A stretch of 38,182 nt of DNA from the IMG/VR virus record IMGVR_UViG_3300020474_001130, positions 1-38,182 of that record. One strand, written 5' to 3'. The translations under genes were made by a program, and so were the position numbers. Numbering within the stretch: the first letter of the stretch is position 1; every line of letters starts with the position of its first letter. The notes under the pieces were generated by a model. That model saw only the letters and a list, made by a program, of their open reading frames with translations, was not told the origin of the DNA and searched no databases. Below, in pieces: positions 1-36,869 of this stretch. The stretch comes from a virus.

Positions 1-453
1 CTATTAACAATCGAAAATGATGAAATGGGTTGGGGATTAGAATCTTCATTAGAATTAGAAAAACATTGTGCATTGGTTTTGGACATTCATCATCATTGGG
101 TACGTACAGGAGAATACATACAAGCAGATGATGACAGAGTAAAAAGAGTTGTAGACAGTTGGCGTGGAGTAAGACCAACTATGCATTATTCTTATTCAAG
201 AGATGAATGGTTGACTCCTGCTTATCCAAATGCAGAAGATATGCACAAAGGATTCCATGATATGGAAACACTATTAAGCAAAGGTTGTAAAAAACAAAAA
301 TTACGAGCACACTCGGAGTTACTACCAAATCGTGCAGTAAACGAATGGGCATTGTCTTTCCTACCAAATCTTGACATACAGGTAGAAGCAAAGATGAAAA
401 ATCAAGCGGCAGAACAATTACACACTCAGGCTGAAGAACTGGGTTTAGTTTAA
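1..453 (+). CDS. uvsE: UV-damage DNA endonuclease (UvdE/UvsE), C-terminal part
   Basis: The reading frame is open from base 1, so the gene starts upstream; about 150 residues are visible. UvdE enzymes are TIM-barrel metal-dependent endonucleases that nick 5' of UV photoproducts to start excision repair. The visible part has an ENDE motif near its start, a DIHHHW motif that fits the metal-binding histidine strand, and then VRPTMHYSYSRDEW, which fits the family pattern of a late barrel strand with a substrate-side loop. It ends with a helical tail and stops just before a late-promoter core that serves the SOD gene. Repair of UV lesions suits a phage of sunlit surface water. The assignment rests on motif recall, and the N-terminal half cannot be checked here. 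Confidence 0.8.
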   Translation, partial: LLTIENDEMGWGLESSLELEKHCALVLDIHHHWVRTGEYIQADDDRVKRVVDSWRGVRPTMHYSYSRDEWLTPAYPNAEDMHKGFHDMETLLSKGCKKQKLRAHSELLPNRAVNEWALSFLPNLDIQVEAKMKNQAAEQLHTQAEELGLV

Positions 454-454
454 A

Positions 455-462
455 AATAAATA
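455..462 (+). promoter_or_regulatory. T4-type late promoter core (AATAAATA) before the SOD gene
   Basis: The TAAATA core ends 6 nt before the ATG at 469, with no ribosome-binding site between them. By T4 late-promoter geometry (TATAAATA around -10), transcription would start at or next to the ATG. Confidence 0.65.
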
Positions 463-468
463 CAGCAT

Positions 469-1020
469 ATGAAATACGATCAAATAACAGAGGCGAAGAA
501 AAATCGCGAACAAAAACTTGAAGCAGTGAAACTACCTTACAAGTTAGGTGATCTATCTCCTGTACTTTCAAAAAATAATGTAGACTATCATTATAATGTT
601 TTAACAAAAGCATACGTTAGAAGGTACAACGAAGGTGAAGGTGATCCTGATTTTAATTATGGTGGTGCAAAACTTCATAATTTGTTTTGGAGTCAGTTAC
701 GTAAACCAACACCATCTAATAAACCAAGTGGTGCAATTAAAGAACTAATTGAAAAGAATCATAAAACATTTGATGCATTTAAAAAAGAAATGTTAAGAAT
801 GGCTATGAGCATACAAGGTTCTGGTTGGGTTTACTTGGCACGTAATGGATCGATAAAAAGGACTCCAAACCAATCTTACAAAACAGATATATTAATGCCA
901 ATCGATATGTGGGAGCATTCTTTTATGGATTATATTCCTGCCAAAGATGCAAAAAAGAAATATGTCGAAGGCATGATGAGAATTATAGATTGGGATTCAA
1001 TTAATCAACGACTATCATAG
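469..1020 (+). CDS. Fe/Mn-type superoxide dismutase
   Basis: This 183-aa protein matches the iron/manganese superoxide dismutase family, which converts superoxide to oxygen and hydrogen peroxide. It has the family opening LPYKLGDLSPVLS. All four expected metal ligands are in place: H41 (DYHYN), H70 (AKLHNLFW), and D146 and H150 (in IDMWEH). GSGWVYLARNG precedes the last pair, as usual, and the length is close to bacterial SODs. A short N-terminal extension, MKYDQITEAKK, precedes the SOD fold and resembles T4 capsid-targeting propeptides, with a possible cleavage after ITE. The gene follows a late promoter core, so it should be made late with virion proteins. Whether iron or manganese is used cannot be read from the sequence. 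Confidence 0.9.
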   Translation: MKYDQITEAKKNREQKLEAVKLPYKLGDLSPVLSKNNVDYHYNVLTKAYVRRYNEGEGDPDFNYGGAKLHNLFWSQLRKPTPSNKPSGAIKELIEKNHKTFDAFKKEMLRMAMSIQGSGWVYLARNGSIKRTPNQSYKTDILMPIDMWEHSFMDYIPAKDAKKKYVEGMMRIIDWDSINQRLS

Positions 1021-1031
1021 GAGGAAAAACA

Positions 1032-1205
1032 ATGATAACTTCAGTACAAAAATGGGTAAATGCAAGAATCAAAGAAAGAACTACTCTTGACGGAGCAATT
1101 CTTATTGGTGCAGGTATTGCCTTTTTAATTTTCAAACCGATAGCAAGTATAGTGGCATACGGAGCAATTGCCTACGGTGCTTGGACTATTTGGAAATCAG
1201 AATAA
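1032..1205 (+). CDS. Small membrane protein, 57 aa
   Basis: The ORF starts with ATG at 1032, 7 nt after a strong ribosome-binding site (TAGGAGG at 1018-1024) that overlaps the SOD stop codon. The protein has a short basic N-terminus (MITSVQKWVNARIKERTTLD) and then about 30 hydrophobic, glycine- and alanine-rich residues interrupted by a KP pair. This suggests a hairpin or one long membrane segment. It is probably co-transcribed with the SOD gene and ends one base before the convergent minus-strand gene. Function unknown; a role in the host membrane is only an inference. Confidence 0.7.
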   Translation: MITSVQKWVNARIKERTTLDGAILIGAGIAFLIFKPIASIVAYGAIAYGAWTIWKSE

Positions 1206-1556: not shown

Positions 1557-1907
1557 ATGCCAATAATGACAATGACCAACACAGCAGAAGACAAGATTAA
1601 AGAACTGTGTACAAGCAATAATAAGTGGGCAGTGCGTTTAGGCATAAAAGGCGGCGGCTGTGCAGGTTTTTCCTATGATTGGGGTTTTGCAGAACAAGAC
1701 GAAATGCAGGACAACGACGAACTAATTGAAACAGAAGGTGGAAGATTAGTGGTAGACAGCCATAGTGTAATGTACCTATTAGGAACTGAATTGGATTATG
1801 TCAATGAAGTGTGGGGTTCACATTTCGATATCAAAAATCCAAACGCAAAAAGCGCCTGTGGGTGTGGTGAAAGCATTCAGTTCGATTTGGAAAAAATAAA
1901 TGGCTAA
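1557..1907 (+). CDS. HesB/IscA A-type iron-sulfur carrier
   Basis: This 116-aa protein is an A-type carrier that receives Fe-S clusters and passes them to apoproteins. The three conserved cysteines are present: C35 in KGGGCAGFSY, and C101 and C103 in the C-terminal SACGCGESI motif. The length is standard for the family. The N-terminus reads MPIMTMTNTAEDKIKEL, so a start at M4 or M6 is possible. HesB-like genes are known auxiliary genes of marine T4-like phages. Likely clients are host proteins or the phage's own ferredoxin (21.6 kb). It overlaps the start of the giant structural gene by 8 nt, so the two are probably co-translated late in infection. Confidence 0.92.
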   Translation: MPIMTMTNTAEDKIKELCTSNNKWAVRLGIKGGGCAGFSYDWGFAEQDEMQDNDELIETEGGRLVVDSHSVMYLLGTELDYVNEVWGSHFDIKNPNAKSACGCGESIQFDLEKING

Positions 1908-11624: not shown

Positions 11625-13154
11625 ATGGATGAAAAAGAATATATCGTTACAGTAAAAGAAGGTGTTGATTGGCGTGAAGTCCATGAAGACCTAACAAAAG
11701 ATAATCAAAAACAATTCATTCCAAATCACAAAGTACCAGTTGACGATTTAAGAGAAATCAACAAACGTAATACGCATTATCATCTTTCAGACCACGAAGC
11801 ATCAGAATTAAGAAAAGATTCTAGAATAGAGGCAGTCGAAATACCTATGATACCTCAAAAGAAAGCACTGCAAGAAGGAGACTTCAATAGAGGCGGAACA
11901 GATTCAGGACAACAAGACAACTGGGGACTATTAAGACACATAGCAGACAATAATATTTTCGGAACATCATCAAGTGATCCGGGTGGAACGTATGACTATG
12001 TGCTAGACGGCAGTGGTGTAGATGTTGTTTTACAGGATTCAGGTATACACAAAACACACCCAGAGTTTCAAGATGCAAATGGAACAAGTAGAGTTCAAGA
12101 AATAAATTGGTTTACTGCTTCAGGAGTATCAGGAAGTCAACCAGCAAACTTCTACACAGACACAGATGGACATGGAACACACGTTGCATCGACAATGGCG
12201 GGACAAAAATTTGGTTGGGCCAAAAATGCAGACATCTATTCGCAAACAATATTGGACAATCCAGGAAATACTATATCAGTTGGAAATGCAATGGACACAT
12301 TGTTAGGTTGGCATCAAGCAAAAACAAATAATAGACCTACTGTGGTCAACATGAGTTACGGTTATGTTTATTACCTTAACACAGCAACAACTCCAAACGG
12401 ATTTGGTTTTAGTAGCAGTGGTCCTTGGTACGATTTAGTCAGCGGAACATACAGAGGAACACCACACACAGATACCACTAGAAGTAATTTAAGAACACGT
12501 GGAATAAATGGTCAATTCAGAGGAAATAGCCTTTACGGTTTTCCTGCAAGAGTGTCAAGTGTTGATGCTGATATAAAACAATTGACTGATGCAGGAATAA
12601 TTGTGTGCATCGCGGCTGGTAACGACAGCATGAAGCATGATATTTCTACAGGCGTAGATTACAACAACAGTCTTGTGGTAACTGCTTTTGGAACTTGGTT
12701 TTATCACACAGGTGGCAGTCCTAATCTAAACGGCGAACCTGGTTTCAATGTTGGTGCAATAGGATTTTCAAACAGCAATGCCGCTTTCAACGAGAAAGCA
12801 AGTTTCAGTGATTCTGGTCCAGCAACCAACATTTACACTTGCGGACAAAATATCATTGGAGCATGGCCCACTACAACTTATCCTTATCATTATAATAGTT
12901 CATTTGGACAAAATAAAATTTCAGGTACGTCTATGGCGTCACCACAAATGGCTGGTATGGCGGCTTGTTTATTACAGGCACATCCAGACTGGTCACCTAG
13001 ACAGGTAATGAATTGGTTTACAAGCAATGCCACATCAACAATTTTGAACACAGGACAAGATGACGATTATACAACAAGTAATAGTGTGCATGGCGGGCCT
13101 GCAAAAGTAGGATACTTACCATTAAAAGGTCAGAAACCGTTTGGAATAAACTAA
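11625..13154 (+). CDS. Subtilisin-like serine protease (peptidase S8)
   Basis: This 509-aa protein carries a complete S8 catalytic triad: D138 in VVLQDSGIHKTHPEF, H183 in DGHGTHVAS and S436 in SGTSMASPQMAG. The oxyanion asparagine N333 sits in AAGNDS. Residues 1-75 resemble an inhibitor-type propeptide, ending in DSRIEAVEIP as in I9-like prodomains. There is no signal peptide. The gene sits among fibre genes and follows the 639-aa fibre by 6 nt, so the product is probably made late. It may act on the virion (fibre maturation) or at the cell surface during entry or lysis; which of these cannot be decided from the sequence. Cyanophage-type T4-like genomes are known to carry subtilase genes. Confidence 0.92.
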   Translation: MDEKEYIVTVKEGVDWREVHEDLTKDNQKQFIPNHKVPVDDLREINKRNTHYHLSDHEASELRKDSRIEAVEIPMIPQKKALQEGDFNRGGTDSGQQDNWGLLRHIADNNIFGTSSSDPGGTYDYVLDGSGVDVVLQDSGIHKTHPEFQDANGTSRVQEINWFTASGVSGSQPANFYTDTDGHGTHVASTMAGQKFGWAKNADIYSQTILDNPGNTISVGNAMDTLLGWHQAKTNNRPTVVNMSYGYVYYLNTATTPNGFGFSSSGPWYDLVSGTYRGTPHTDTTRSNLRTRGINGQFRGNSLYGFPARVSSVDADIKQLTDAGIIVCIAAGNDSMKHDISTGVDYNNSLVVTAFGTWFYHTGGSPNLNGEPGFNVGAIGFSNSNAAFNEKASFSDSGPATNIYTCGQNIIGAWPTTTYPYHYNSSFGQNKISGTSMASPQMAGMAACLLQAHPDWSPRQVMNWFTSNATSTILNTGQDDDYTTSNSVHGGPAKVGYLPLKGQKPFGIN

Positions 13155-13882: not shown

Positions 13883-13890
13883 GATAAATA
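13883..13890 (+). promoter_or_regulatory. Late promoter core (GATAAATA)
   Basis: The core ends 5 nt before the ATG at 13896, with no ribosome-binding site. It fits the leaderless late arrangement. Confidence 0.62.
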
Positions 13891-17962: not shown

Positions 17963-18484
17963 ATGCAAATTGATTCTTTAGGACTGCCTAAGTATGGTAC
18001 AGATGATTTGATGGATCTAATTTACAAAGGTAAATTGGATACTTTGTTTAAAGTGTACACAGAAGATAACGAAGACACAAAACAATTCAATCATGCAGTA
18101 AAAGACACAGGAACAGGTCAGGCATTAAAATTCTATGAAAAAATGGACATTAGTCTTGAAGAGTTTGATTCATTATTACAGAATGAATGGTTCATGCCAA
18201 ATAGTTACAAACAATTTGATATGGAAAAATATTTAGAGCAAGTGTGTCCTGATAATGATATATCCAAGCAGAGGGTAAAAGATGAATTACAAGCATTTAG
18301 AAAGATGGGTTTCGAAAATTTATTAAAGTTCTTACACTTTTTGGTAACGTTTATGCGTGATAACAAAATTGTATGGGGTGTAGGCAGAGGCAGTTCGGTA
18401 GCAAGTTATGTATTATTCCTATTAGGAGTACACAAAGTTGATTCAATTCAATATGACTTGGACTGGCAGGAGTTCCTTAGATAA
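17963..18484 (+). CDS. Stand-alone fragment of a C-family (Pol III alpha-like) DNA polymerase
   Basis: The last 40 residues of this 173-aa protein contain WGVGRGSSVASYVLFLLGV followed by HKVDSIQYDLDWQEFLR. These match the GxGRGS...S...YLLGI..vDPi.yDLlFeRFL segment of the catalytic palm of bacterial DNA polymerase III alpha (DnaE/PolC). In full polymerases the catalytic aspartates follow just after this point (PDxDxD), but here the protein stops at FLR, so it cannot polymerise on its own. The N-terminal 130 residues are helical and acidic and do not match a PHP domain. It may bind nucleotide or interfere with the host replicase; that is inference. It has its own early promoter, so it is unlikely to be mere debris. 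Confidence 0.75.
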   Translation: MQIDSLGLPKYGTDDLMDLIYKGKLDTLFKVYTEDNEDTKQFNHAVKDTGTGQALKFYEKMDISLEEFDSLLQNEWFMPNSYKQFDMEKYLEQVCPDNDISKQRVKDELQAFRKMGFENLLKFLHFLVTFMRDNKIVWGVGRGSSVASYVLFLLGVHKVDSIQYDLDWQEFLR

Positions 18485-23738: not shown

Positions 23739-24254
23739 ATGCAAGATATTAAAGATATTATAGCAACCATATCAAACGTCTATGAAAATGACACGGCATT
23801 CACAGTCCTAAAAGACTTTGAAAGAGTGTTAGATGAATTAGATTTATACGTGTACGACAACTGGGAAACGGGCGAATTAGTAGAAGGCCCTAAGATGGCT
23901 AGACACTTTATTACTTGTTCTTTCATGTGGCCCAGAGAGAAAATGCCAGACCCAATGGGTGGCAAAAGATTAACAGACTTTGGCTGTAAAGTATTCTTCA
24001 AAAAAGATGTTTACATATTTCCAAGAAAAATTTTACAACAAAACGATATCAGACCAGGTACTAAAAAAGGTAAACTAGATCAGATGCCTATCTGGATAGT
24101 TGAAATAAGAATGCCTAAAGAATTAATTAGAACAATTTACAGCGGATACGAAGCAGAACAAGATTTCAATGTAGATCCTGCTAATTCAGAAGTTGTGGAC
24201 GATGCAACTCCAATTGAAAAAGCAGATACTATCGTTCCAGCAGAAGGCGAATAA
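23739..24254 (+). CDS. Conserved late protein, 171 aa
   Basis: The protein contains an alpha/beta region (NWETGELVEGPKMARHFITC, FMWPREKMPDPMGGKRLTDF, then CKVFFKKDVYIFPRKI) and an acidic tail (VVDDATPIEKADTIVPAEGE). No enzyme motif was recognised. It is preceded by a late promoter and its stop overlaps the next start (TAATG). Similar pairs of genes occur in marine T4-like phages and are often called virion structural proteins, which suits the late timing. Function remains unknown. Confidence 0.7.
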   Translation: MQDIKDIIATISNVYENDTAFTVLKDFERVLDELDLYVYDNWETGELVEGPKMARHFITCSFMWPREKMPDPMGGKRLTDFGCKVFFKKDVYIFPRKILQQNDIRPGTKKGKLDQMPIWIVEIRMPKELIRTIYSGYEAEQDFNVDPANSEVVDDATPIEKADTIVPAEGE

Positions 24255-24976
24255 TGGGACTTAATCAACACGATTTAGAATTCACAGTAGATCCTATCTT
24301 CGAAATAGATTCATACAAATCTAAAATGGGAGATGATCAAGACATAGTCGTATTAAGTTTCAGTGTAAGCGGAGAACAACCTGCAAAAGATTTAGTAAAC
24401 TTCATCGAGACAGGATATAACTTTGTTTTAGATGCTGATAAGACAAGTGGTGAACAAGCAGATAAAAAATATAGAGTGTTCGTTGAGATGGAAAGAAATA
24501 GACACGTTCCAAATCAAATAATAGAAATATTAGATGGCGTAAAAAAATTAACAAATATGCCTGAACTTAGATTTAGATACTACAAAAATTTTAGAAGCAT
24601 TCCAGCAGACGAGTCAAACATAAATGAACAAGTTCCATTAGATTCAGGCACATACGACATCAAAAGAAATGAAACTAAAATGGAAAACTACAAAAATTTC
24701 TTTGCAGACAGTTATGTTGATGAGGTCTTTATGGAAGGAAACAACGTGCATATGCACAAAAAATATGGTGACAATATCGTGTTTAACTTTATAGACATGG
24801 GTTGGAAAAAAGAAGTGCTTGAAAGCATAAAAGAATCTATTCAGATTGAAGCATTTCCAGAAATAATTTTCTTAAGTAAGTATGTTGGTGACTACAACAT
24901 TACCAAATTTGGTAACAAATTGGTATTTGAAAATAACGGTCACTGCGTGGTACTTAAGAGAGATGAGATTATCTAA
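24254..24976 (+). CDS. Conserved late protein, 240 aa
   Basis: Translation is coupled to the 171-aa gene (TAATG). The protein has an acidic alpha/beta N-terminal domain (QDIVVLSFSVSGEQPAKDLV, YRVFVEMERNRHVPNQIIEI) and a C-terminal part ending in NKLVFENNGHCVVLKRDEII. It has no signal, membrane segment or catalytic motif that I can name. It overlaps the endolysin start by 14 nt. By context it is probably a virion or assembly protein. Confidence 0.7.
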   Translation: MGLNQHDLEFTVDPIFEIDSYKSKMGDDQDIVVLSFSVSGEQPAKDLVNFIETGYNFVLDADKTSGEQADKKYRVFVEMERNRHVPNQIIEILDGVKKLTNMPELRFRYYKNFRSIPADESNINEQVPLDSGTYDIKRNETKMENYKNFFADSYVDEVFMEGNNVHMHKKYGDNIVFNFIDMGWKKEVLESIKESIQIEAFPEIIFLSKYVGDYNITKFGNKLVFENNGHCVVLKRDEII

Positions 24977-32920: not shown

Positions 32921-33502
32921 ATGCGTATTGTAGAAGTTGTAGAGGCTCCAAGTAAAACGGCAGTATTCGCATTTGGCAGAATGAATCCGCCAACAGCAGG
33001 TCACAAAAAATTAGTAAACACAATCATGAAACAGGCAGGAGACCATTACCTGTTTTTAGGGCCATCTAAAAGTGCCAGTCCCGCAACAGATCCTTTAACA
33101 CACGATCAAAAAGTAAAATACGCAACAGCAATGTTTCCAGGAATACAATTAGGTGACAGTTCAGTTAGAACTTGGGTACAAGCAATGCAATACCTACAAA
33201 AAAGAGGATACACAGATATCATATACGTTGCTGGTAGCGATAGAGCAAACACATTCAACACATTATTAAACAGATACAATGGCAAGGACTATAACTTCAC
33301 TTCTATTAAAACTGTAGACGCAGGCACTAGAGATCCTGACTCGCCCGGAATTGAGGGGATTAGCGCCAGTAAAATGCGTGAATTAGCGGCGAGAGGCGAC
33401 GAAAAGAACTTTATTCGTATGACGCCATTGCCCACTAAACTAGCAAAAACCATGTACGATGAAGTACGTAAAGGTATGGGTGTACAGAAGGAGCCAGCAT
33501 AA
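32921..33502 (+). CDS. Nucleotidyltransferase of the cytidylyltransferase fold (NadM-like)
   Basis: This 193-aa protein has the signature pair of the family: FAFGRMNPPTAGHKKLV at residues 17-32, with the HxGH-like NPPTAGH loop at 22-28, and GISASKMR at 146-153, matching the ISxSxxR motif. Relatives make NAD or CDP compounds from nucleotide triphosphates (NMN adenylyltransferases, CTP:phosphocholine-type enzymes). The substrate cannot be told here. The protein begins with MRIVEVVEAPSK, which resembles a T4 capsid-targeting propeptide with a possible cut after VVE. It is coded in the late cluster, 2 nt after the previous stop. Confidence 0.86.
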   Translation: MRIVEVVEAPSKTAVFAFGRMNPPTAGHKKLVNTIMKQAGDHYLFLGPSKSASPATDPLTHDQKVKYATAMFPGIQLGDSSVRTWVQAMQYLQKRGYTDIIYVAGSDRANTFNTLLNRYNGKDYNFTSIKTVDAGTRDPDSPGIEGISASKMRELAARGDEKNFIRMTPLPTKLAKTMYDEVRKGMGVQKEPA

Positions 33503-33504
33503 AT

Positions 33505-33717
33505 ATGAATATAGCGGAGTTGAAAAAACTTGCAGGTATAGGTGAAAAACAAAATGAACCATCTATGGGTGAAAATATTAGTCACACTGCAACTGAATTA
33601 AAACATAAAGAAAGACAACTAGGCTTAAAACCAGGTGATGATGAATGGTTTAAATTATGGTTTAGAAGACCATATATGCAAGGGGCACACAAAGGATTTA
33701 AAGGTAGAAAGAAATGA
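33505..33717 (+). CDS. Small late protein, 70 aa
   Basis: The ORF starts 2 nt after the previous stop. The N-terminus MNIAELKKLAGIGEKQ is a short amphipathic helix, of a type seen at the start of several marine phage late proteins. The middle (SHTATELKHKERQLGLKPGD) and the tail (WFRRPYMQGAHKGFKGRKK) are basic. No domain was recognised. It may be a small head-associated protein; function unknown. CATAAATA overlaps its own start codon and is not likely to be its promoter. Confidence 0.6.
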   Translation: MNIAELKKLAGIGEKQNEPSMGENISHTATELKHKERQLGLKPGDDEWFKLWFRRPYMQGAHKGFKGRKK

Positions 33718-34427
33718 AGATAAGAAACATATTACCAGAGTTTAAAATTGCAGGACAACCGGATCCAAAGGATGCGGCTGACTACAAAGAAAAAATGAAA
33801 ACTCTGCAACAGATTCAAAACGATCCTAAAATGAGAGATCCTCAGACTCAGGCAACTATCGCAAAGAGAAAAGAAGAACTACGTAGATGGGCAGAAAAAA
33901 ATATGCCTAAAAATGAAGACGCACCATTTGACGGTATGGGTTTAGTGAGAATGGCTTTAATGAAAAAGTTTATTACAGCAGAAGAATGGCATGGTTTAAA
34001 AGATAAGTGGAAAGGTGCAGTTGAAGAATTAGAACAAAAATATGATGATTGGCCAGAAGACCAAGGTTTTGGATCATCAGACCACAACTATGCAATTAAA
34101 GAATTAATGGAACTAGTAGGATATAAATTTGACGATCAAGATACAAGTGGTAGATTTGTTGTTTCTAAAATGCCTCCAGAGTTAGAAAAGATGGGCATAA
34201 AAAATGCAAGGATGAAAGATGCAGTGACAACTGGCGAAGACGCAGACATTGACGCACAGATGAAAGTTGATATACTACAATTCCTTAACACAAAAGTTGC
34301 AGGCATAGAAAGACAAATAGAAATGAAACCTGCATTTACACAAGAAGATATTGACAATAAAGAATTTACTTTAAAATTAATTGACTTTGTTCAAAAGAAG
34401 TTAGACGACAAACAAAAGGGTGACTAA
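33714..34427 (+). CDS. Late helical protein with propeptide-like N-terminus, 237 aa
   Basis: The start overlaps the previous stop (ATGA). The protein begins MKIRNILPEFKIAG, which fits the pattern M-K-x-x-x-I-L-P-E of T4-type capsid-targeting propeptides (possible cut after LPE). The rest is highly charged and helical (KEELRRWAEKNMPKNEDAPF, MALMKKFITAEEW, DWPEDQGFG). No catalytic motif was found. By position it is a candidate internal head protein. Confidence 0.62.
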   Translation: MKIRNILPEFKIAGQPDPKDAADYKEKMKTLQQIQNDPKMRDPQTQATIAKRKEELRRWAEKNMPKNEDAPFDGMGLVRMALMKKFITAEEWHGLKDKWKGAVEELEQKYDDWPEDQGFGSSDHNYAIKELMELVGYKFDDQDTSGRFVVSKMPPELEKMGIKNARMKDAVTTGEDADIDAQMKVDILQFLNTKVAGIERQIEMKPAFTQEDIDNKEFTLKLIDFVQKKLDDKQKGD

Positions 34428-34858
34428 TGAGATTCCAAGAACTTATAGAAGGCGCATCAATGATGCCTTACTTCAAAGACCCTAAAGACAAAACACAAAA
34501 AACTTGGACCTTCCCAGATGCTTGGCAAAAAGACGAACCATTAGATACTCCATACATGAGCAATTATAGTATGAGACAATTTCTTGATGCGTTAGGTTAT
34601 AATCCAGACTTTGAAGATAATCAACCACCTGTACCAGCAAAAGAATTTATTGCTAGAACTACGCAATGGCTTCAAAAGAATATTGACAAGCCGTCAAAAT
34701 ACGAACCAACCCAAGTGGATAAAAATCCAGGTGGACCCACAATGTACACTGGTGGTAGAGAAGAAGGGCATATGAATAAAACAATCAAATACCACAACGA
34801 ACTTGCCAGAAAAATTATTGCCAAATATCCAGAAGTAACACATTTTGGTTTTAATTAA
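34427..34858 (+). CDS. Late protein with propeptide-like N-terminus, 143 aa
   Basis: The start overlaps the previous stop (TAATG). The N-terminus MRFQELIEGASMM closely fits a capsid-targeting propeptide, with a cleavage-type LIE followed by G (residues 6-8). The remainder has a proline- and aromatic-rich region (TWTFPDAWQKDEPLDTPYMS) and a helical C-terminus (HNELARKIIAKYPEVTHFGF). Function unknown. Its stop overlaps the nucleotidase start. Confidence 0.63.
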   Translation: MRFQELIEGASMMPYFKDPKDKTQKTWTFPDAWQKDEPLDTPYMSNYSMRQFLDALGYNPDFEDNQPPVPAKEFIARTTQWLQKNIDKPSKYEPTQVDKNPGGPTMYTGGREEGHMNKTIKYHNELARKIIAKYPEVTHFGFN

Positions 34859-35745
34859 TGCGTCTTTCCGAAATAAGCAGAACTATTGACATTTACAACA
34901 AAAGGTTGTATAATGAAAATATGGAATCGATGCCTACAGTTTATTTGGATATGGACGGAGTCCTTGCAGACTTTTTTGGTGGTATAGAAAAGTTGTATGG
35001 AGTCCAACATTGGAAAGAACTTACTTCTGACAGAACGAAAGATTTAAAAACAGAAGTAATTAAAAAAATTACAGGAACAAATTTCTTTGAAACTTTGCCT
35101 AAATTTAATACAGCAGATGCATTAATTAAATTAGTGCAGGATTTTACAGGCGGTGTATATTCAATTAACACTTCACCATTAAGAGGTGATAATAAAAATT
35201 CAGCATACTATAAAAAGATTTGGATAGGTAAGCATTTACCTAAACCACAAGAAATAATTGTTACAGGACGTAAAGAATCTTACGCAATGAATAAAAATAA
35301 CAAACCAAATATACTAATTGATGATAGACCAATCAATATACAACGTTGGACAGGTAGAGGTGGATATGGTATATTGTATCAAGCAAACAAAGATTCAGTA
35401 GGCAAAGTTCAAACTGGTTTAGAAGAGTATAAGAAAAAATATTTGATCACTAAAAACGAAGGCGTTGGAATTATTACAAAGCAAAATGCAACCAAAGACA
35501 GTCCTATCGGAAGTGAATATTCCAATGTTAAAAAATTAGGATTAGGCAAAGGCAAGCCTAAAAGTATGAGAGAAAACTTTGCAGATGGCAAAGGTCCAGG
35601 CAAACCTGGTGACAGTCAGAGACATGGAATACCCAAAGGTGCAACAATGGCACAATTACAAAAAGCCGCAAAAGCACCCGGCAGGAAAGGTCAATTGGCA
35701 CGTTGGCAAATCAATATGCGAAAAGGCAGAAAAAAAGCAAAATGA
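34858..35745 (+). CDS. 5'-deoxyribonucleotidase (HAD family) with basic C-terminal extension
   Basis: The 295-aa frame starts at 34858 (TAATG overlap); a second in-frame ATG at 34921 lies 6 nt after an early promoter, so two products (295 and 274 aa) are likely. The nucleotidase domain begins with PTVYLDMDGVLADFFGG, where D31 and D33 are the catalytic HAD aspartates, and continues with YSINTSPLRGDNK, KLVQDFTGGVYS and NILIDDRPINI for the remaining motifs. Such enzymes remove phosphate from deoxynucleoside monophosphates. From about residue 195 an added region follows (IITKQNATKDSPIGSEYSNV, then FADGKGPGKPGDSQRHGIPK and QLARWQINMRKGRKK). It is basic and not part of the enzyme; similar tails occur on marine phage virion proteins. 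Confidence 0.87.
   Translation: MRLSEISRTIDIYNKRLYNENMESMPTVYLDMDGVLADFFGGIEKLYGVQHWKELTSDRTKDLKTEVIKKITGTNFFETLPKFNTADALIKLVQDFTGGVYSINTSPLRGDNKNSAYYKKIWIGKHLPKPQEIIVTGRKESYAMNKNNKPNILIDDRPINIQRWTGRGGYGILYQANKDSVGKVQTGLEEYKKKYLITKNEGVGIITKQNATKDSPIGSEYSNVKKLGLGKGKPKSMRENFADGKGPGKPGDSQRHGIPKGATMAQLQKAAKAPGRKGQLARWQINMRKGRKKAK
34886..34914 (+). promoter_or_regulatory. Consensus early sigma70-type promoter inside the nucleotidase gene
   Basis: TTGACA (34886-34891), a 17-nt spacer and TATAAT (34909-34914): a full consensus match. It ends 6 nt before the in-frame ATG at 34921. An inverted repeat TACAAC-N5-GTTGTA (34894-34910) fills the spacer and touches the -10. Confidence 0.8.
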
Positions 35746-35897: not shown

Positions 35898-36033
35898 ACC
35901 CAAACCGTATAACTCACTAGGTAAAAAGCCTAAAAAGTTTAAGAGTTATCGTGTGCTGAAAGACGGCACAGTACAGCACTGGGATAAATCAGCAAATGGC
36001 AAAAGAGGTGGCTGGCGTCCTAAGAAAGTATAA
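35875..36033 (+). CDS. Small basic protein, 52 aa
   Basis: This short ORF overlaps the previous one by 23 nt. It encodes a lysine- and arginine-rich sequence (FRRANKPKPYNSLGKKPKKF, then VLKDGTVQHWDKSANGKRGG) ending in WRPKKV. Its TAA stop is part of the late promoter core that follows. Such strongly basic small proteins could bind DNA or package with it; no direct evidence. Confidence 0.5.
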   Translation: MAFRRANKPKPYNSLGKKPKKFKSYRVLKDGTVQHWDKSANGKRGGWRPKKV

Positions 36034-36036
36034 ATA
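36029..36036 (+). promoter_or_regulatory. Late promoter core, exact T4 consensus (TATAAATA)
   Basis: This is an exact TATAAATA match. Its TAA (36031-36033) is the stop codon of the preceding gene, and it ends 5 nt before the ATG at 36042. Confidence 0.75.
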
Positions 36037-36608: not shown

Positions 36609-36866
36609 ATGAAGATTAGAGATATCATATCAGAAGTAGCGTCAGTAGGCGCAACAAGTGCCGCCAATATTGCAACAGTGGCATCACCACACATAGCAGT
36701 AGGCCCTGATAGATTTAAGAAATCATACACAGGTACTCCTGGAAAGTCAGGAACAAAGGCTCCAAGATTACCGAAAGTAGTACAACCTAAAAAGAAAGAC
36801 GGCACAGCCAAAGGCGCTCATGCATTACCAGGAGTGAGTATCTTCGGTGGACCGCTAAAGAGATAA
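36609..36866 (+). CDS. Late protein with propeptide-like N-terminus, 85 aa
   Basis: The N-terminus MKIRDIISEVASVG fits the T4 capsid-targeting pattern, with ISE at residues 7-9 as a possible gp21-type cleavage site. An alanine-rich helix follows (GATSAANIATVASPHIAVGP), then a basic, proline-rich tail (KSGTKAPRLPKVVQPKKKDG). A small, processed internal head protein is a reasonable hypothesis, but nothing enzymatic is visible. It ends in FGGPLKR. Confidence 0.6.
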   Translation: MKIRDIISEVASVGATSAANIATVASPHIAVGPDRFKKSYTGTPGKSGTKAPRLPKVVQPKKKDGTAKGAHALPGVSIFGGPLKR

Positions 36867-36869
36867 ATA
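36862..36869 (+). promoter_or_regulatory. Late promoter core (GATAAATA) before the cysteine-rich peptide
   Basis: The core's TAA (36864-36866) is the preceding stop codon, and it ends 5 nt before the ATG at 36875. Confidence 0.63.

Follow-up and report, generated by a model that had tools for sequence, protein, structure and literature searches.

A superoxide dismutase with a predicted capsid-targeting leader in T4-related marine phages

The stretch of DNA analysed here in its entirety, hereafter the window, corresponds to a 38,182-base IMG/VR record and represents a fragment of a T4-related phage, with a clamp loader, a gp9/10-like structural protein and others among its genes. The nearest match of its clamp loader lies in the PA5oct-type Pseudomonas jumbo phages (56%). 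Close to its start, the window carries a gene for a superoxide dismutase (SOD) of the Fe/Mn family, preceded by a UvdE-like UV endonuclease gene, of which only the 3' part is present, and by a late-promoter-like motif, and followed by genes for a small protein and an IscA/SufA-type Fe-S biosynthesis protein (Table 1). This neighbourhood recurs among the 90 SOD loci compared: a UvdE-like homologue stands upstream in 66 of them at a median distance of 39 nt, the 57-aa small protein is conserved beside the SOD gene in 47, and the Fe-S biosynthesis gene, which in the window has its own ATAAATA at 1527-1533, is conserved nearby in 68. In T4 (NC_000866, 65416-66415), the UV-repair gene denV adjoins ipII/ipIII, while in most loci studied here the UvdE-like gene precedes SOD; this parallel of neighbourhood and gene order is suggestive only.

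Other genes of the window and its relatives deserve mention in their own right. A protein of 173 aa encoded at 17963-18484 has its match in a DNA polymerase family of phages (phrog_11127, E 9.5e-40) and is far below polymerase length, and a subtilase-family protease (Pfam Peptidase_S8, E 4e-36) is encoded at 11625-13154 amid tail-fibre-like genes. In relatives G001 (133463-134653 and 141281-143197) and G007 (190246-192138), inspection by eye suggests genes for 5-aminolevulinate synthase and DnaK. A search of the whole window against Rfam gave no match.

Table 1. Features of the SOD locus and of leader- or module-bearing genes in the window; a slash in a protein sequence marks the end of the leader.
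Feature	Position	Strand	Evidence or remark
UvdE-like UV endonuclease gene, 3' part (5' side cut by window start)	1..453	+	phrog_8420 endonuclease, E 4.4e-30; Pfam UvdE weak
Late-promoter-like ATAAATA	456..462	+	6 nt 5' of the SOD start codon
Fe/Mn-family superoxide dismutase gene, 183 aa	469..1020	+	Pfam, PDB matches, fold
Leader codons MKYDQITE	469..492	+	predicted capsid-targeting; predicted prohead protease cut E8/A9 (nt 492/493)
SOD fold, residues 16-183	514..1017	+	predicted structure, alignment
Ligand codons H41, H70, D146, H150	589-591, 676-678, 904-906, 916-918	+	
Leu45 codon, at the His30 position	601-603	+	
Small protein, 57 aa, weak membrane-protein match	1032..1205	+	phrog_502, E 6e-4
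IscA/SufA-type Fe-S biosynthesis protein	1557..1907	+	Pfam Fe-S_biosyn, E 1.1e-19
Cytidylyltransferase-like protein, leader MRIVEVVE/A	32921..33502	+	phrog_3041, E 3e-48
Protein with leader MRFQELIE/G, no Pfam match	34427..34858	+	leader pattern
Deoxyribonucleotidase-like protein with basic C-terminal module	34858..35745	+	Pfam NT5C, E 1.1e-6

The open reading frame had been described from its sequence as a SOD with all metal ligands intact, and Pfam, the PDB, the predicted fold and the ligand alignment agree with this description. Both Pfam domains score above their cut-offs (Sod_Fe_C, 68.3 bits against 20.9, E 6.4e-19; Sod_Fe_N, 35.9 bits against 27, E 1e-8), and SODs in the PDB match the product with E values down to 7e-20. 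The structure predicted for the window SOD (pLDDT 92.4) superposes over residues 16-183 on solved SODs with a Z of 23.9 and an rmsd of 1.7 Å over 165 residues; compared with the model, solved Mn and Fe enzymes give Z values of 23-24 and rmsd values mostly of 1.4-2.0 Å. H41, H70, D146 and H150 align with the ligands of Escherichia coli SodA and SodB and are the same in every one of the 56 unique phage relatives. This strict conservation argues for a retained chemistry, which is predicted. Tyr49, Gln/His135, Trp148 and Glu149 are conserved as well in phage SODs. In having Gly66 and Gln135, the window SOD resembles E. coli SodA, which shows the Mn-type pattern, and not SodB, which shows the Fe type; the enzyme therefore probably uses Mn, the better guess for its metal.

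The phage enzymes share with bacterial SodA/SodB (PF00081 and PF02777) the fold, the four ligands, the gate Tyr, the WEH motif and, in the window, the Mn-type Gly/Gln pattern. They are unlike them in four respects: an N-terminal leader, the distance between the first two ligands, the residue at the His30 position and an identity of 39% at best to the cellular relatives found. All 27 phage proteins placed in our tree have Leu at the position of the second-sphere His30, whereas 23 of the 24 cellular SODs have His30. The first and second ligands are 28-29 residues apart in phage SODs (29 in the window, H41 to H70), as opposed to 45-55 in cellular ones, and the phage alpha-hairpin between them is shortened. 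His30 and a full-length alpha-hairpin, both absent from the phage SODs, are usual in cellular SODs and do not define them. Leu45 and the short hairpin may alter activity, stability or subunit assembly.

The sequence-only reading had considered phage SODs to be rare. This is correct for cultured phages and does not hold for the ocean. Among 50,697 cultured phage records, only 12 appear to carry a member of this clade, 11 of PA5oct type and Vibrio phage 2.275.O, a membership based on a hit count with two representatives placed in the tree; the remaining SOD matches in these records look cellular. In uncultured phages the enzyme is not rare, since a first scan of IMG/VR gave 95 relatives and a profile-derived scan at least 437 loci. 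No PHROGs family matches the phage SOD, and the NCBIfam SOD models score far under their cut-off on it. The PA5oct-type proteins, annotated as sodB or as hypothetical, and the Vibrio 2.275.O protein have the same Leu at the His30 position and the same short hairpin; they differ from the window SOD by an identity of 35-36% and by His at the Gln135 position.

The tree comprised 24 cellular SODs and, on the phage side, 25 SODs of T4-related phages plus the PA5oct-type and Vibrio proteins. Phage and cellular SODs are split at 100/100 by a branch of 1.26 changes per column, so that the phage SODs lie outside the cellular ones, bacterial SodA/SodB being the comparison that had been proposed for such a phylogeny. 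The phage SODs form one deep, phage-only clade, which is old. Pairwise dN/dS values of 0.02-0.11 indicate strong purifying selection (the pair L027/L031 was ignored, its value being an artefact of unequal length). These enzymes could conceivably descend from a recent capture of a host sodA or sodB with no settled role: many bacteria have SOD genes, and a freshwater phage contig (L251) carries a cellular-type SOD that groups with the cellular enzymes in the tree. The split at 100/100, the long branch and the low dN/dS nevertheless make this origin extremely improbable at this sampling. Moreover, the best cellular identity found is 39%, and no closer match, hence no close cellular donor, was found among 199 genomes of one phylum, plasmids and a pattern scan of GTDB species. 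A recent, random acquisition lacking conservation had been named beforehand as one outcome that would refute the sequence-only reading; the result was the opposite, an old and phage-specific gene under purifying selection.

The gene had also been placed behind a late promoter, and the conserved ATAAATA-type motif just upstream supports this. All 13 copies of ATAAATA in the window lie on the plus strand, which is the mainly coding one. Of the copies in the window and in four relatives, 62-86% are found at most 70 nt upstream of an open reading frame on the same strand, compared with 9-12% for permuted motifs, and the motif also stands 5' of the portal gene in three relatives. As for the SOD genes themselves, 49 of the 62 unique ones have NTAAATA 4-6 nt ahead of the ATG. 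Over seven genomes, the spacing between motif and start codon shows two peaks, one formed by 35 genes in which it is exactly 5 nt, the other broad and around 16-28 nt. A Shine-Dalgarno-like stretch accompanies 4 of 54 genes in which this distance is 8 nt or less, against 77 of 104 in which it is 10 nt or more. T4 late transcription starts about 6 nt after the motif, so transcription of the short-distance genes would begin at the ATG. The SOD mRNA is probably leaderless, and the pattern suggests that many late mRNAs of the SOD-phage relatives may be so too. Members of the short-distance class occur in the window at 456-462, 13884-13890, 36030-36036 and 36863-36869 and also in G001, G003, G006, G007, G013 and G015. 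Inverted repeats seen at some SOD genes around the promoter motif (CGATAAATATCG) or around a variant motif (GCTAAATATTAGC) were discarded as promoter elements, most ATAAATA sites in the genomes being without them.

The N-terminus of the window SOD, MKYDQITE/A, sets it apart from its cellular counterparts. Residues 1-14 fall outside the SOD fold in the structure superposition, whereas the N-termini of E. coli SodA and SodB lie almost directly at the fold. The relatives show 51 distinct N-termini, of which 44 carry a short leader with hydrophobic-x-Glu at its end. These correspond to 43 distinct leaders. The Glu is fixed in them, 38 have Leu or Ile at position -2, and the residue after the Glu is mostly Ala, Ser or Thr; the length and the remaining sequence vary. 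Upon shuffling of 14 representative leaders, each had a 14-47% chance of such a motif; the product of these chances, 3e-8, gives a scale only, as the leaders are not independent. The PA5oct-type SOD has the leader MNDSIKKYISIAE/A. An initial claim that the leader Glu is invariant in all unique N-termini was refuted by the seven remaining sequences and reduced to 44 of 51. These seven have a different, longer leader, their open reading frames starting further upstream; four contain LAGIGE (I-x-E) and three no clean site. A second leader type, MDLEYLKKLAGIGE.., opens the SODs of L067, L072, L074, L076, L078 and L079 and resembles the start of the window open reading frame at 33505 (MNIAELKKLAGIGE); it may be another targeting signal. 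The Vibrio jumbo-phage SOD is devoid of an N-terminal leader, unlike that of the window, and carries instead a leader-like stretch at its C-terminus, NIRHLINFISK, similar to leaders of the DIRKYINLFE type.

The published specificity of the T4 prohead protease gp21 is L/I-X-E (PMC9026906). Ten N-terminal residues of IPIII are enough to have a foreign protein packaged and, upon infection, delivered (PMC9026906; see also PMC3012670, PMC12373910). As a control, we examined T4 itself, where ipII and ipIII start with MKTYQEFIAE/A. The SOD leader is accordingly predicted to be a T4-type capsid-targeting sequence with a gp21-type cut site. With T4 IPI-IPIII, the phage SODs have in common a short N-terminal leader ending in hydrophobic-x-Glu before Ala or Ser, late expression and, in near-complete relatives, a gp21-type protease encoded by the same phage. 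They differ in their more variable leader sequence and in their cargo, an enzyme-fold protein whose packaging is predicted, whereas the T4 cargo is a small restriction inhibitor.

The protease family (PF03420) scores over the cut-off in G007, G013 and G015, which are all three relatives longer than 200 kb, and in both SOD-clade jumbo-phage isolates examined, Callisto and Vibrio 2.275.O; a gp21-type protease is hence present in 5 of 5 SOD phages with near-complete sequence. The window and the shorter contigs (40-148 kb) gave no gp21 match, probably as they are fragments, and the protease is known from relatives only. The gp23 proteins of the three large relatives have LAE/A or LAE/N where T4 has LTE/A; gp23 is absent from the fragment that constitutes the window.

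Leaders of this kind are not confined to SOD. Over seven genomes, similar leaders are enriched at N-termini starting with M[KR] relative to internal positions (odds ratio about 3.6, p 7e-10), an enrichment that is modest and not significant in two of the seven. A proteome-wide positional count of the pattern [LIVMF]xE[ASGT] gave no usable enrichment and was abandoned for the pattern anchored at the N-terminal M[KR]. A gp67-like core protein has such a leader in G007 (MRYKELKE/AY) and in G015 (MKLFEFFE/AA), and the set includes a protein starting with MKTFTQYLSE/A, very near to the T4 leader. In G007, SOD lies within a run of genes whose products start with MRYSEIINE, MRLTKLFE, [SOD], MNLKDF..., MLISEIC... 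and MKNNIRKWKQLIE. In the window, the cytidylyltransferase-like protein is a candidate for a further packaged enzyme. Finally, in L058 (3426-4340) SOD forms an in-frame fusion with a basic C-terminal module that matches the product of window 34858-35745 (46% over 95 aa, E 6.5e-16), and relatives of the first part of this module in G013, G015 and G001 stand directly after such a leader. The same lysine-rich module (..ENFADGK.. to ..MYHWCANMKSGRSKK) occurs at the C-terminal end of unrelated proteins, at window 34858-35745, G006 23883-24683, G015 65680-67830 and in L058.

The same observations invite two other explanations. The SOD could be an ordinary late auxiliary enzyme detoxifying superoxide in the infected cell, its N-terminal extension serving stability, dimer contacts or nothing. 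The late promoter and the intact ligands are compatible with this, and neighbouring genes for UV repair and Fe-S assembly fit a support of the stressed cell. It would leave unexplained, however, why L/I-x-E followed by a small residue is kept in otherwise variable leaders, why other proteins and the T4 internal proteins have leaders that look alike, and why SOD is fused to and clustered with leader-bearing genes; we consider it unlikely. Alternatively, the protein might be a packaged head component with a SOD fold and little or no activity, playing a structural or DNA-associated internal role. The loss of His30 and the shortened hairpin, common to every one of the 27 phage proteins in the tree, as well as the L058 fusion to a basic module, would suit such a protein, but a structural role does not require the four ligands, Tyr49, Gln/His135, Trp148 and Glu149 to be conserved, which renders this option quite improbable.

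We favour a capsid-targeted SOD that would be made late, lose its leader in the prohead and be injected with the DNA, removing superoxide, and we give this reading a probability of roughly two in three. A compact, probably Mn-using SOD would be produced late in infection, and its first eight residues would draw it into the prohead core in the manner of a T4-type capsid-targeting sequence. The gp21-type protease of the phage would then cut after E8, and the mature enzyme would stay in the head with the DNA until ejected into the next cell. Superoxide would be removed there or in the stored virion. The sequence-only reading had proposed that the virion or, at entry, the next host is protected, and this gains independent support from the T4-style leader and from the gp21-type protease of near-complete relatives; that the protein is packaged, cleaved, injected and catalytically active, which metal it uses and what it protects are what we infer. 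A functional parallel may exist in the chlorovirus PBCV-1, whose Cu/Zn SOD is reportedly the product of a late viral gene and found in the virion, but this is an unrelated fold in a eukaryotic algal virus with another packaging route.

A broader scenario can be proposed more tentatively, and we regard it as somewhat less probable than its negation. Large T4-related marine phages may inject a head-packaged SOD streamlined by a short hairpin and the lack of His30, and its compaction would ease passage through the portal. Within the first minutes of infection the enzyme would disarm superoxide, which the host might make as a defence, and proteins with similar leaders, the cytidylyltransferase-like enzyme and others, would travel with it.

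SOD and capsid targeting are each known already, and what is new here is the N-terminal leader outside the SOD fold. The open literature on phage-encoded, virion and marine phage SOD yielded no paper on this clade, and no description was found there of SOD and capsid targeting combined in tailed phages. If the proposed reading is true, a vague 'phage stress gene' becomes directly testable, and the T4 capsid-targeting route, known for small restriction inhibitors, would also serve a redox enzyme that hundreds of ocean phage contigs encode. It would also suggest a sequence rule for recognizing injected enzymes among genes currently classed as auxiliary metabolic genes, namely a leader ending in L/I-x-E together with a gp21-type protease.
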